Below are positions 23,542-53,186 of a stretch of DNA of 64,000 bases, in pieces (position 1 is the stretch's first letter; every line of letters begins with the position of its first letter). This DNA comes from Winogradskyella sediminis (GTDB lineage Bacteria > Bacteroidota > Bacteroidia > Flavobacteriales > Flavobacteriaceae), in the NCBI RefSeq assembly GCF_003387355.1, contig NZ_QUNH01000001.1, positions 258,023 to 322,022 on the forward strand, in the 5' to 3' direction. The notes under the pieces were generated by a model. It ran no database searches and was not told where the DNA came from. It saw only the letters and a list, made by a program, of their open reading frames with translations. A program made the translations under genes and the position numbers.

Positions 23542-23892
23542 CTAAGATTTCACAACTAGATTAAAAACTAAGAAAACAATAAAGATGATAACACATAAGG
23601 CAATCATAAATTTATAAGAATGCGATTTGGAAGACGCTATACTATTAATATCTTCATCGTATATGGCGTTAAAATACTGACTAGAAATAACATCAAGATT
23701 TGCTTTAAAATCAGATATTGGTCGCTCATTTGTAATTTCATGTGTCAGATGATCGGAAATGTCTTTATATATTTCAAAAGCTTGCTTAAACTGAGCATCA
23801 GATCGCAAACGCTTATTAAAAATAGACAACTCATCTTTAGTTAAATCACCAACCAAGAACTTTTCGAACTGTATAAAATCTTGTTTTTCCAT
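23542..23892 (-). CDS. Anti-sigma-factor-like single-span membrane protein
   Basis: 116 aa. The N-terminal 85 residues are soluble and helical (FEKFLVGDLTKDELSIFNKRL), followed by one C-terminal membrane helix (about 91-112; FMIALCVIIFIVFLVFNLVV) and a three-residue tail. This cytoplasmic-domain-plus-anchor layout, and its position 4 bases downstream of an ECF-type sigma gene, suggest an anti-sigma factor, but no zinc HxxxCxxC motif is present. Function inferred from context. Confidence 0.55.
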   Translation of the reverse strand: MEKQDFIQFEKFLVGDLTKDELSIFNKRLRSDAQFKQAFEIYKDISDHLTHEITNERPISDFKANLDVISSQYFNAIYDEDINSIASSKSHSYKFMIALCVIIFIVFLVFNLVVKS

Positions 23893-23896
23893 AAGT

Positions 23897-24478
23897 TTAG
23901 TAAAACTGTAGGTTAAATTTTGGTGCGTTCTGTACTAATTGGGTTAATTCACCAATACATAATACTTTTTGATTAACCGCGTCAGCATAATTGATTTTTA
24001 AGCTTTTAGCGACTTCGACCTTGGGCTTCGTTGAAAAAGTAGCTCTTAGTATCTCTTTACAAGCATCATCTAGATGCTGAAACACTTCATTATACAACGC
24101 GTGGTTTTGTTCATAAACAGAAGTCTCAACAGATAATACCTTAGCAGTATTATCTGTATTTAATTCATTTTCATCCATTATCTTGACAACATCTACATTT
24201 TCCTTCAACCGGTTTAACCATTTACGCTTACATAAATAAAAGAAATATGTTTCAAACGGACAGGTTAAGTGCAACTTCTGTTGTTTGGCCTGATTATATA
24301 TAGCAATTATAGTTTCTTGAATAACATCTTGGGCATGATAAGCATCACCATTATTTTGGTTGATATATTGAATTACTCGAGATGAAAACTTAACATAAAT
24401 CTCCTTAATAACCGTAGTATTATTGTTGGCCAATCCATCAATATATTTTTGGTCTTCGTGTAATTTATTTTCCCTCAT
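23897..24478 (-). CDS. ECF-like RNA polymerase sigma factor
   Basis: 193 aa. Region 2 is recognisable: NNNTTVIKEIYVKFSSRVIQ, then AQDVIQETIIAIYNQAK and the aromatic core of region 2.3 (FETYFFYLCKRKWLNRLK). The C-terminal region 4 is weak but includes PKVEVAKSLKINYADAVNQK as a possible HTH. Paired with the downstream membrane protein it makes a candidate sigma/anti-sigma switch. The signal is unknown. Confidence 0.7.
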   Translation of the reverse strand: MRENKLHEDQKYIDGLANNNTTVIKEIYVKFSSRVIQYINQNNGDAYHAQDVIQETIIAIYNQAKQQKLHLTCPFETYFFYLCKRKWLNRLKENVDVVKIMDENELNTDNTAKVLSVETSVYEQNHALYNEVFQHLDDACKEILRATFSTKPKVEVAKSLKINYADAVNQKVLCIGELTQLVQNAPKFNLQFY

Positions 24479-24837: not shown

Positions 24838-25278
24838 ATGGAAACATTAAAGGACTTCCTCCTTAATAAAGGCTATTCAAAAGTGAAGTTAAAACTCACT
24901 AAAACCAATCATTTTGAAATAAAAGCTAGTGTTAATGGTGTAAAAGGACGCTTTATCCTAGACACAGGAGCATCGAGTAGTTGTGTTGGCTTTGAAGCTA
25001 TTGAACGTTTTAAACTTAAAGTAAAAGACTCTGAAATTAAAGCGGTTGGCGCAGGTGCCTCTGACATGTTGACGCAAATCTCATCATCTAATGCCATAAA
25101 AGTAGGAAAATGGAAAAAAAACCGAGTCGCTCTCATTCTTTTTAATTTATCCCATGTCAATAATGGTTTAATGAATCATAATGCCGACCCTGTAGATGGT
25201 ATTATTGGAGCAGACATCTTAAAAAAGGGTAAAGGGATTATAGACTATGAGAAAAAATACTTGTATTTAAAGTTGTAG
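24838..25278 (+). CDS. Retropepsin-like aspartic protease domain protein
   Basis: 146 aa from the ATG at 24838; an in-frame TTG at 24811 is a weaker start. The core has the retroviral-type active site FILDTGASSSCVG (D42) and a C-terminal flap-like strand GIIGADILKKG, the single-domain architecture of clan AA proteases that act as homodimers. No signal peptide, so it is probably cytoplasmic. Substrates are unknown. It precedes the response regulator gene by 80 bases on the same strand. Confidence 0.78.
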   Translation: METLKDFLLNKGYSKVKLKLTKTNHFEIKASVNGVKGRFILDTGASSSCVGFEAIERFKLKVKDSEIKAVGAGASDMLTQISSSNAIKVGKWKKNRVALILFNLSHVNNGLMNHNADPVDGIIGADILKKGKGIIDYEKKYLYLKL

Positions 25279-25358
25279 AATCTTTTTAATTGTAAATAGC
25301 ATGGAGAAGTTTTTTTTACTAAAGTTTCTTATTACCTTTAAATAATTAATAGCAAAAA

Positions 25359-25982
25359 ATGAATCCTACTATCATTATAGCAGATGACCATCCTCTGGTC
25401 CTCAAAGGTCTGCATGATTTTTTAATAGAAAAAGAATATAACGTATTAGCAAGTGCAAAAAATGGTAAAGAAGCTTTAACTCTGATTAAAGCACATACTC
25501 CAGACATTGCCATTTTAGATATTAAAATGCCGTTTTACTCTGGTTTAGAAATTGCCGAGAAATGTAAAAAGGATAAGCTTCCGACTAAAATTGTACTTAT
25601 TACTTTTGAGAAAGATGAAAAAATATACCGCGAAGCAAAAGCTTTAGACATTTACGGTTATGTTCTAAAAGAATTTGCACTGGTAGAAATTGAAAACTGC
25701 ATCTCATCTGTAGTAAAAAACAACTCTTATTTTAGTCCAGAACTATTAAAGTTTTTAGAACTAAATGAGTTGCCTGAAAATTTTGAGTTACTTACCAAAC
25801 ACGAAAAAGGTATCGTAAAATTAATTTCTGAAAACAAAACTGGTGTTGAAATTGCCGATATACTTTTAATTTCTCCGAGAACCGTTGAAAAACATAAAAG
25901 TAATATTATAAAAAAGCTAAAATTAGAGCGCAAACAAAACAGTTTACTCATCTGGGCAAAGGAAAATTCACATCATTTATGA
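25359..25982 (+). CDS. NarL/FixJ (LuxR-HTH) response regulator
   Basis: 207 aa. Receiver domain about 1-120: acidic pocket D9/D10, phosphoacceptor D54 (AILDIKMPF) and conserved Lys in YVLKEF (about 105). C-terminal LuxR-type HTH about 147-190 (LTKHEKGIVKLISEN..GVEIADILLISPRTVEKHKS). No histidine kinase gene is in the window, so the partner is elsewhere. Directly downstream lie two small transcription units whose promoters share a near-perfect 16-bp palindrome centred about 43 bases before the predicted starts, where a NarL-type activator would bind. Confidence 0.92.
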   Translation: MNPTIIIADDHPLVLKGLHDFLIEKEYNVLASAKNGKEALTLIKAHTPDIAILDIKMPFYSGLEIAEKCKKDKLPTKIVLITFEKDEKIYREAKALDIYGYVLKEFALVEIENCISSVVKNNSYFSPELLKFLELNELPENFELLTKHEKGIVKLISENKTGVEIADILLISPRTVEKHKSNIIKKLKLERKQNSLLIWAKENSHHL

Positions 25983-26007: not shown

Positions 26008-26023
26008 TACGTAAAGTTACGTA
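26008..26023. promoter_or_regulatory. Perfect 16-bp palindrome, operator 1
   Basis: TACGTAAAGTTACGTA consists of half-sites TACGTAA and TTACGTA around AG. It begins 26 bases after the response regulator stop and exactly 42 bases before the promoter block CTTTACA at 26050. A second copy with the same spacing occurs at 26200. NarL-family regulators often bind such 7-2-7 inverted repeats. Confidence 0.65.
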
Positions 26024-26057
26024 TAGTATCATATTATTTTTTTTATGACCTTTACAC

Positions 26058-26181
26058 CATGTTACAAATGTAGGGGTTGTAACATACAATTTGCTATTAG
26101 TTAATTCTAAAACATCATAGAATTGATTAATTCTTAGGGATTATTATGGCCTTGAACTTATGTTCAGGGCCTTTTTTTTTT
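26058..26181 (+). ncRNA. Candidate structured small RNA (about 120 nt)
   Basis: From the predicted start near 26058 to the T tract at 26172-26181. Stem 1: ATGTTACAA/TTGTAACAT (26059-26067/26077-26085, 9 bp perfect). Stem 2: AATTCTA/TAGAATT (26103-26109/26118-26124), which competes with AGAATT/AATTCT (26119-26124/26129-26134). A strong terminator hairpin closes the transcript (26148-26171). The only ATG frames are 4 codons or fewer, so it is non-coding. Its promoter carries operator 1 next to the response regulator. Confidence 0.6.
26148..26181 (+). terminator. Terminator of the candidate small RNA
   Basis: GGCCTTGAAC/GTTCAGGGCC stem (one G.U pair), loop TTAT, followed by ten T's. Confidence 0.85.
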
Positions 26182-26199: not shown

Positions 26200-26215
26200 T
26201 ACGTAAAGTCACGTA
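26200..26215. promoter_or_regulatory. 16-bp palindrome, operator 2
   Basis: TACGTAAAGTCACGTA differs from operator 1 at one base. It again stands exactly 42 bases before a CTTTACA block (26242-26248), upstream of the 38-aa peptide gene. Confidence 0.65.
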
Positions 26216-26334
26216 TTGTATTGTGTTATAATTAATTGCAACTTTACATCAGCTATTAATTCAAACTTCAAATTATAATCCTATAAGCTCGAAATTAAAA
26301 TATAATTCAGAGTTTATAATAACACAATAAGTCC

Positions 26335-26451
26335 ATGGAAACAATGAAAAAAGAATCGAGTACAAAAAGCGATAAGATCTTTGTAATCTTATTAATTGTT
26401 AGTTCAGTAATTGTTATTTCAGCAAATATCGCTGTTAACTTCTTTAATTAA
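26335..26451 (+). CDS. 38-aa single-span membrane peptide
   Basis: ATG to TAA, 38 residues: a charged N-terminus (METMKKESSTKSDK) and one hydrophobic helix (IFVILLIVSSVIVISANIAV). The second ATG (codon 4) is an alternative start. Transcription is predicted from the operator-2 promoter (about 26250) to the terminator at 26494-26520. No family recognised. The shared operator with the small RNA suggests both answer to the neighbouring response regulator. Confidence 0.55.
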   Translation: METMKKESSTKSDKIFVILLIVSSVIVISANIAVNFFN

Positions 26452-26493
26452 TTTTAGTTAGTTAAGCACTCTTGTTAGTTAGGAGTAAAAAAA

Positions 26494-26520
26494 AAGCGCA
26501 ACTCTTCTGGAGTTGCGCTT
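26494..26520. terminator. Bidirectional terminator between the 38-aa gene and odhB
   Basis: AAGCGCAACTC/GAGTTGCGCTT, 11-bp perfect stem with a 5-base loop, with an A run on the left (terminates odhB on the minus strand) and T-rich sequence on the right. Confidence 0.8.
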
Positions 26521-26546
26521 TCTCATTTTTATATGTTAGATAAGAT

Positions 26547-52730: not shown

Positions 52731-53186
52731 CTACTGAAAAATTATAGGACGTTCTGTTTTAGATATTTTAGCAATATAATAAGGTTGTGTCATTACACTT
52801 GTAGCATTTCCTGAAGGACTATGAAATTTTGTAACCACTAAGGTGCTTTCCGAATTTGCCAAAATATCTAATGTTATACGATGTCCTCCACTCCCCTTTA
52901 CATCATTAAATACAGCGATAACAGTATAACTAGAAAAGTCAATCTTAGTCTCTGTAAACTGTTCAGAGACCTTGTTTACCTTATCCATTTTAGATATTAA
53001 ATTTTCCCAATCGGCTTGGTTATCTATAATTATATTTTGCTTATCTATTCCTTCAGATCCTGCTCCATGCAAATTTCCTTTAGCAATTACAATTGGTTCT
53101 ATCGTTTTCATTTTAGCATTATTTTGATTGCTTTTACAACCCAAAACAAATACTAAAGATAATATTATTATGGTATGTGTTTTCAT
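52731..53186 (-). CDS. PrcB-like lipoprotein
   Basis: 151 aa. Lipoprotein signal with LGC lipobox (FVLGCKSNQ). The mature part resembles the PrcB C-terminal domain found in secreted protease-complex subunits: NIIIDNQADWENLIS, IDFSSYTVIAVFNDVKGSGG, SPSGNATSVMTQPYYIAKIS. The PrcB domain is known mainly from a treponemal protease complex; no protease partner gene is nearby, so the function here is unknown. Confidence 0.75.
   Translation of the reverse strand: MKTHTIIILSLVFVLGCKSNQNNAKMKTIEPIVIAKGNLHGAGSEGIDKQNIIIDNQADWENLISKMDKVNKVSEQFTETKIDFSSYTVIAVFNDVKGSGGHRITLDILANSESTLVVTKFHSPSGNATSVMTQPYYIAKISKTERPIIFQ

Follow-up and report, generated by a model that had tools for sequence, protein, structure and literature searches.

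A predicted multicopy small RNA family linked to a LuxR-type response regulator in Winogradskyella sediminis and other Flavobacteriaceae, and its proposed feedback circuit

Introduction

Behind the gene of a LuxR-type response regulator (RR) of Winogradskyella sediminis lies a predicted member of an RR-linked, multicopy small RNA (sRNA) family with a new placement rule. The locus is part of a stretch of 64,000 nucleotides (here called the window; contig NZ_QUNH01000001.1, positions 258,023 to 322,022), for which an initial annotation, made from the sequence alone, had proposed an sRNA controlled by the adjacent regulator. Judged by comparison with related genomes, from which its architecture, conservation and complementarity are read, this sRNA is very probably real, and its proposed tie to the RR is supported by the conservation of operator, spacing, promoter core, terminator stem and position behind the RR. 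We regard it as probable that promoters activated by the RR give rise to this RNA (RNA1) as well as to a second RNA (RNA2) with a small protein, and that these RNAs pair with the RR mRNA at its start, where they probably prevent translation.

Layout of the locus

The features are listed below with their positions in the window and their strand, where one applies.

24841-25278, plus strand: retropepsin-like aspartyl protease gene, syntenic neighbour upstream of the RR (start METLKDF assumed)
25344-25353, plus strand: AATTAATAGC in the RR translation-initiation region, complementary to the 5' GCUAUUAAUU of RNA2
25359-25982, plus strand: LuxR/NarL-type RR with receiver and GerE helix-turn-helix (Pfam Response_reg, GerE), the proposed activator
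26008-26023: operator 1, TACGTAAAGTTACGTA, centred at about -43.5
26047-26054, plus strand: -7-like element GACCTTTA of the RNA1 promoter, from the conserved 27-nt spacer between operator and TTTAC and the position rule of PMC9723704
26059-26178, plus strand: predicted RNA1, about 120 nt, from conservation and fold (minimum free energy -36.7 kcal/mol)
26059-26085, plus strand: lineage-specific 5' hairpin of 9 bp with AGGGG in the loop, from the predicted fold
26093-26180, plus strand: core matching the family model R1 (42 bits, E 3.9e-6), with seed GCUAUUAG at its 5' end
26148-26171, plus strand: stem-loop of the intrinsic RNA1 terminator with a T-run after it; stem covariation in other genera
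26200-26215: operator 2, TACGTAAAGTCACGTA, preceding the 38-aa membrane open reading frame (ORF)
26239-26246, plus strand: -7-like element CAACTTTA of promoter 2, with the same spacer as promoter 1
26251-26334, plus strand: RNA2, or small-ORF leader, with seed GCUAUUAAUU at 26252-26261 and a weak stem at 26282-26318
26335-26451, plus strand: small ORF of 38 aa, from the translation, containing a single hydrophobic stretch that is interpreted as a membrane span (METMKKESSTKSDKIFVILLIVSSVIVISANIAVNFFN)

Winogradskyella and many other genera share the gene order protease, RR, operator/RNA array, small ORF and sucB; two of the neighbouring genes are taken to be sucB and tatD. A search with the RR protein returned 59 loci, of which two (L065 and L066, 31-33% identical) were dropped and 57, mostly from Winogradskyella, were left. 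The receiver residue Asp54 is invariant across nine aligned RRs. The protease (Pfam Asp_protease_2, E 9e-13) adjoins the RR in relatives and has a match in 144 of 149 Flavobacteriaceae genera. In ten regions of other genera (L111, L112, L149, L153-L156, L159, L166 and L167), a gene for a kinase-like protein of about 670 aa lies between protease and RR, and the two of these proteins that were run through Pfam contain HisKA_3 and HATPase_c domains, one of them also TPR repeats. The kinase-like protein is likely the ancestral partner of the RR; in the W. sediminis genome there is no clear ortholog, the best match having 33% identity over 224 residues.

The window also contains, between tatD and the protease, a gene for an ECF-type sigma factor with a small neighbour (23542-24478), for which L017 alone gave a match (35-37% identity) within the fetched flanks of the 57 relatives. 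A 13-bp terminator hairpin (26493-26521) separates the small ORF from sucB; it is flanked by an A-run on one side and a T-run on the other and is therefore probably bidirectional.

Operators and promoters

The initial annotation had described a perfect 16-bp palindrome directly after the RR gene. Its 7-bp arms are indeed perfect, but operator 1 matches at 14 of 16 positions, because the two central bases are asymmetric and give 2 mismatches on the minus strand. For the promoter expected downstream there is a -7-like element at 26047-26054. In Flavobacterium psychrophilum the sigma-A box TAnnTTTG occupies positions -12 to -5, according to the available text of PMC9723704; by this rule, the two window promoters would have their +1 at about 26059 and 26251, with the operator centred at -43.5, in line with the activator position near -43 assigned earlier. 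Operator 2, which had been overlooked along with the small ORF, the match between the RNAs and the RR mRNA, and the RNA copies near other regulators, sits inside a 68-nt direct repeat (71% identity), and TTTAC is found 27 nt after each of the window's two operators.

This arrangement is widespread in the relatives. An operator of the form TACGTA-N4-TACGTA (11 or 12 of the 12 fixed bases) lies within 1 kb past the RR stop codon in all 58 loci (the window and the 57 relatives), with at least two operators in 53 of them and 120 altogether, and no perfect operator was found in 2000 shuffled 1-kb regions. The Bacteroidota-type -7 core TTTRC follows exactly 27 nt after 107 of the 120 operators, the second commonest spacing being 19 nt (14 cases), mostly from a TTTGC upstream of the core. 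Where a locus has at least two perfect copies, the inner four operator bases are usually identical (34 of 45 loci). Within the W. sediminis genome, this locus supplies the only two operators with a spaced core when at most one mismatch is allowed. Another four exact operator-like sites (L003-L006) were left out of the regulon because all of them lack the spaced -7 core; two of these (L005 and L006) also have TTACGGTAAACCGTAA at a distance of about 65 nt, and their upstream sequence is similar.

By sequence, the sRNA promoter is thus preceded by an operator at the activator position, and we infer that the RR, as the proposed activator, would bind both operators and switch on both promoters.

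The two RNAs and the small membrane protein

The predicted RNA1 shows features that had been ascribed to it: a length of about 120 bases (120 nt for 26059-26178), no ORF inside this interval (in a listing of ORFs of at least 50 aa), a perfect 9-bp hairpin pairing 26059-26067 with 26077-26085 and, after a long second hairpin, a strong terminator made up of the stem-loop at 26148-26171 and a T-run. In this lineage its seed GCUAUUAG is largely paired in the predicted fold, which was computed for an RNA 3 bases shorter at the 5' end and with which the 120-nt fold agrees. The seed of RNA2 (26252-26261) is unpaired in the predicted fold. RNA2 therefore appears to be the better pairing partner in this species, the seed of RNA1 being largely folded away.

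Of 45 loci compared (the window, L008-L049, L053 and L055), 40 have a recognisable small ORF behind RNA2. Pairwise differences at codon positions 1, 2 and 3 number 3901, 817 and 9258, respectively, and single changes are synonymous in 6312 cases versus 1858 non-synonymous ones, a pattern typical of a real protein; searches of Pfam and NCBIfam gave no match above cut-off. Elsewhere in the family, at least two operator-leader units precede a small membrane ORF in several genera (e.g. L042, L050, L086, L101, L141 and L164). At five loci (L154-L156, L166 and L167), the operator-driven promoter runs directly into a small membrane ORF and the RNA is absent, which suggests that the small protein came early among the outputs and that the RNA was inserted later and has multiplied since. 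A strong terminator hairpin with a T-run is located between promoter 2 and the small ORF in L022, L024 and L034, and this suggests either attenuation or a dual output of RNA and protein.

Conservation of the RNA family in Flavobacteriaceae

The operator-spacer-core pattern (at most one mismatch, either strand) occurs in 68 of the 149 genera, which were drawn evenly; several of the 30 pattern loci that were returned have no RR nearby, so not all 68 represent arrays. Up to four copies are found at the RR site in other genera. The most conserved RNAs of these genera have GCUAUUAAUUAGUUCUUAGGGAGAAUUA at the 5' end and reach the end of the terminator after about 70 nt, and in most of them the first G coincides with +1 by the -12/-5 rule. 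Lack of conservation of the palindrome and the hairpins in sister species had been named as what would speak against the proposal; Winogradskyella and many further genera of the family do conserve the operator, its spacing, the core sequence, the terminator stem with compensatory changes and the position behind the RR.

The covariance model R1 was built from 28 RNAs of other genera, none of them labelled Winogradskyella, and it finds sequences outside this training set, namely the window RNA, as the best match of its own genome, and a match in 55 of 60 genomes of the genus (E 0.01). The next match in the W. sediminis genome (E 0.007) resembles a plain terminator, as do all seven inspected members of a set of 17 weaker own-genome matches. 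At E 0.001, R1 has a match in 52 of the 149 genera, which is an upper figure because 12 weaker matches away from the RR site may include chance terminators. Around the protease, 60 further regions were analysed, 28 of which lack the RR, and operators or RNA occur in two of these 28 (L132 = G121 and L144 = G069).

In the R1 alignment, 95.3% of cells are paired, compared with 87.2% after shuffling, and 13 of the 20 pairs are changed on both sides, 12 of those 13 in the terminator stem. The covariation among relatives that the initial annotation had suggested looking for is therefore seen in the terminator stem, which is compensated, but hardly in hairpin 1 (UAGUUCU-UAGGG-AGAAUUA), in which one of seven pairs is changed on both sides; this hairpin is paired in 90-95% of cells and varies too little for proof by covariation. 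Because it is only slightly more stable than shuffled sequences over 130 distinct RNAs (mean z -0.61), we claim it for the type-I RNAs only. RNAalifold, run on the mixed alignment A1, recovered the terminator stem only.

A known RNA family was rejected, as no Rfam model (4227 models, including GibS and Flavo-1) reached its gathering threshold, tRNAs excepted, in the window and 20 relative loci. The best hit on the RNA strand at E up to 10 was MicC (E 0.046), which scored 28 bits where its cut-off is 90, and the GibS model gave a weak match on the other strand of the window and none on the RNA strand.

Complementarity to the start of the regulator mRNA

Five bases upstream of the RR start codon, AATTAATAGC is fully complementary to GCUAUUAAUU of RNA2; its match to GCUAUUAGUU of RNA1 includes one G-U pair. 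Across loci, TTAATAGC is found in 43 of the 91 RR starts, compared with 3 of the 215 starts that served as controls (protease, sucB and tatD). Within the genus it is present in 28 of 39 RR starts (controls: protease 0/40, sucB 2/37, tatD 0/32) and outside the genus in 15 of 52 (protease 1/47, sucB 0/30, tatD 0/29); it is absent from the other 11 and 37, respectively, and at many of the RR starts outside the genus one motif or even both are missing. The second motif, CCCT, a possible partner of the AGGG loop, occurs in 17 of 39 and 29 of 52 RR starts versus 4 of 215 control starts. Mean z values of the duplexes with the RR start are -2.33 (n=39) and -1.81 (n=52), those of the protease, sucB and tatD controls -0.14 to +0.32.

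From the seed tests, loci without a recognised terminator or start were dropped, and five near-duplicate loci were also removed from the re-pairing test. In the latter, 8 of 5000 re-pairings were as good as the true seed-target pairs of 49 loci outside the genus, and in only 30 of the 49 loci did the true pair score better than the mean of the swapped ones; the loci are related, so that statistics over them are not independent. Ranked by energy among 55 genes of the window, the RR start comes first for the RNA1 seed and third (tied second) for the RNA2 seed; ranked by longest perfect match, it comes fifth and second, respectively. The best match of RNA2 (12 nt), in front of the minus-strand gene at 52731-53186, lies at the end of the preceding ORF, may be due to chance and was set aside.

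Complementarity to the regulator's own mRNA, as in Qrr-type systems, is thus found, though not at every locus. By analogy with Qrr and luxO, the match between the 5' end of the RNAs and the RR start suggests that the circuit may be one of negative feedback.

Copies behind other regulators

Of 31 R1 matches outside the RR site, 19 were fetched, the remaining 12 being weaker. Twelve of the 19 RNAs are located behind the gene of a 256-aa PAS-LuxR protein (Pfam PAS_3 and GerE), all under TACTCAAWTTGAGTA, and four behind that of a divergent 221-aa RR, under a palindrome of the TTACGG...CCGTAA type; the last three comprise one at a protease site without RR, a further copy near sucB and one with no regulator. 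The distance from operator centre to RNA start is 43.5 in most copies at the RR, 42.5 nt in the PAS class (43 by the exact 15-mer centre) and 41-43 nt in the class of the 221-aa RR. Thirteen genus regions were picked from the R1 listing, and four of them belong to the PAS class, one to the RR and eight lack any of the three regulators.

W. sediminis itself has a PAS-LuxR gene (L205, C3:144632-145387; 68% identity), which is followed by TACTTAAATTGAGTA, 27 nt, TTTGT and GCTATAAATCAAGGGG, the last being an RNA-like element that represents a divergent copy and is absent from the R1 matches. The genome also encodes an ortholog (55%) of the divergent 221-aa RR (L206, C2:298585-299247), and both a hairpin-terminator unit that contains GGG motifs and an imperfect TTACGG palindrome lie past its stop codon.

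In 20 of 21 cases, the complementary motifs are missing from the starts of the PAS-LuxR and second RR genes, and since RNA copies sit beside these two regulators, feedback on the adjacent gene is not the whole purpose of the family. We see about an even chance that the RNA is a portable cassette, with at least three regulators carrying the same RNA, each under its own palindrome at about -43, and with a shared seed for the RR mRNA, by which several signals would converge on the RR without Hfq or CsrA.

Proposed circuit and alternative explanations

In the proposed model, the RR, probably in its phosphorylated form, would bind the TACGTA-N4-TACGTA operators centred at about -43.5 and activate the two promoters right behind its own gene. 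Promoter 1 would produce the terminated RNA1, and promoter 2 a leader of the same family (RNA2) followed by the small membrane protein. Through the conserved 5' seed (GCUAUUAAUU) and the AGGG loop, the RNAs would then base-pair around the start of the RR mRNA and probably prevent its translation, which would make the circuit a negative feedback loop; transcription, binding by the RR and repression as the direction of the effect are the inferred steps. An Hfq-dependent trans-acting sRNA is ruled against by the absence of a PF17209 match (Hfq) in the W. sediminis genome.

The strongest competitor, to which we assign slightly less than an even chance, is that the RNAs act chiefly on other mRNAs, e.g. 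those of outer-membrane transporters, and that the RR mRNA is a minor target or none. The motif-free starts of the two other regulators with RNA copies (20 of 21) would fit such a role, as would FopS, RNAs of about 65-70 nt with a conserved 5' seed that target susC starts (PMC11697453, available text), whereas the match to the RR start is specific relative to three neighbouring genes and tends to be lineage-matched. A leader or attenuator of the small membrane protein, with RNA1 as a duplicate that lost its ORF and serves as decoy for any factor that binds the leader common to both, would account for the genera in which more than one operator-leader unit precedes the small membrane ORF, for the five loci in which the promoter leads directly into the ORF without RNA, and for the leaders of both units opening with the same GCUAUUAAU in many loci. 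We consider such a function unlikely: it does not predict that the RNAs are complementary to the RR start, RNA1 is closed by a strong terminator, and unit 2 is driven from a promoter of its own.

Two further explanations are less probable still. A LuxR-type RR, a palindromic operator and GGG motifs are reminiscent of the GacA-Rsm system, and the AGGG loops might sequester a translational regulator in the manner of CsrB or RsmY. GGG or GAGAG upstream of the terminator is found in 79 of 130 distinct RNAs versus about 53 in a rough shuffle (GAGAG unshuffled), but each RNA has few GGG motifs and the W. sediminis genome has no match to PF02599 (CsrA), which makes titration of this kind very improbable. 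The repeats might, finally, be DNA elements or bidirectional terminators without a functional RNA, as the plain-terminator appearance of the seven inspected weaker R1 matches could indicate; the conserved 5' core, the exact promoter spacing, the compensated stem and the position behind three regulators weigh against this, and we give it hardly any credence. The feedback model thus remains our preferred reading.

Relation to known small RNAs

LuxO works with sigma-54, and the Qrr RNAs need Hfq. The RR studied here is of the LuxR/NarL type and no Hfq was found. The likeness to Qrr/LuxO of Vibrio, in which sibling sRNAs under an RR repress that RR in negative feedback (PMC3262071, available text), is one of circuit logic, and no sequence relation is claimed. 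In Listeria monocytogenes, five near-identical copies of the sRNA LhrC all require one RR, LisR, similar to the multiple copies described here; LhrC has UCCC motifs in contrast to the AGGG loop, and feedback on lisR is not described in the available text (PMC4132741).

Closer in phylogeny, and a precedent for the form of the RNA, is FopS of Bacteroides thetaiotaomicron, which is about 65-70 nt long and acts next to the start codon, with susC as target. It shares with the present family the phylum Bacteroidota, paralogous copies, a conserved 5' seed directed at translation starts and an occurrence in taxa without classical RNA chaperones, and differs in its canonical sigma-A promoters and its susC target; placement behind LuxR-type regulators with operators is not described in the available text (PMC11697453). 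Among the RNAs Rfp1-89 reported for F. psychrophilum, Rfp18 is a conserved sRNA of the same bacterial family, which, as described, differs in its at least 3 stem-loops and predicted metalloprotease targets (PMC9723704, available text). A description of the present RNA family or its feedback circuit was not found in the open-licence literature, taken without the Rfp1-89 sequence list.

Conclusions

sRNA circuits in Flavobacteriaceae are little studied, and one strain, in which no Hfq or CsrA was found, here offers a family-wide RNA for which an activator, an operator, a promoter, a seed and a first target are predicted. The analysis also points to a 38-aa membrane protein that is conserved but matches nothing in Pfam or NCBIfam above cut-off. 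If the cassette model is true, several signals would converge at the RNA level on one RR that also makes a small membrane protein, and one RNA placed behind several different regulators would be an unusual way of wiring signals together.
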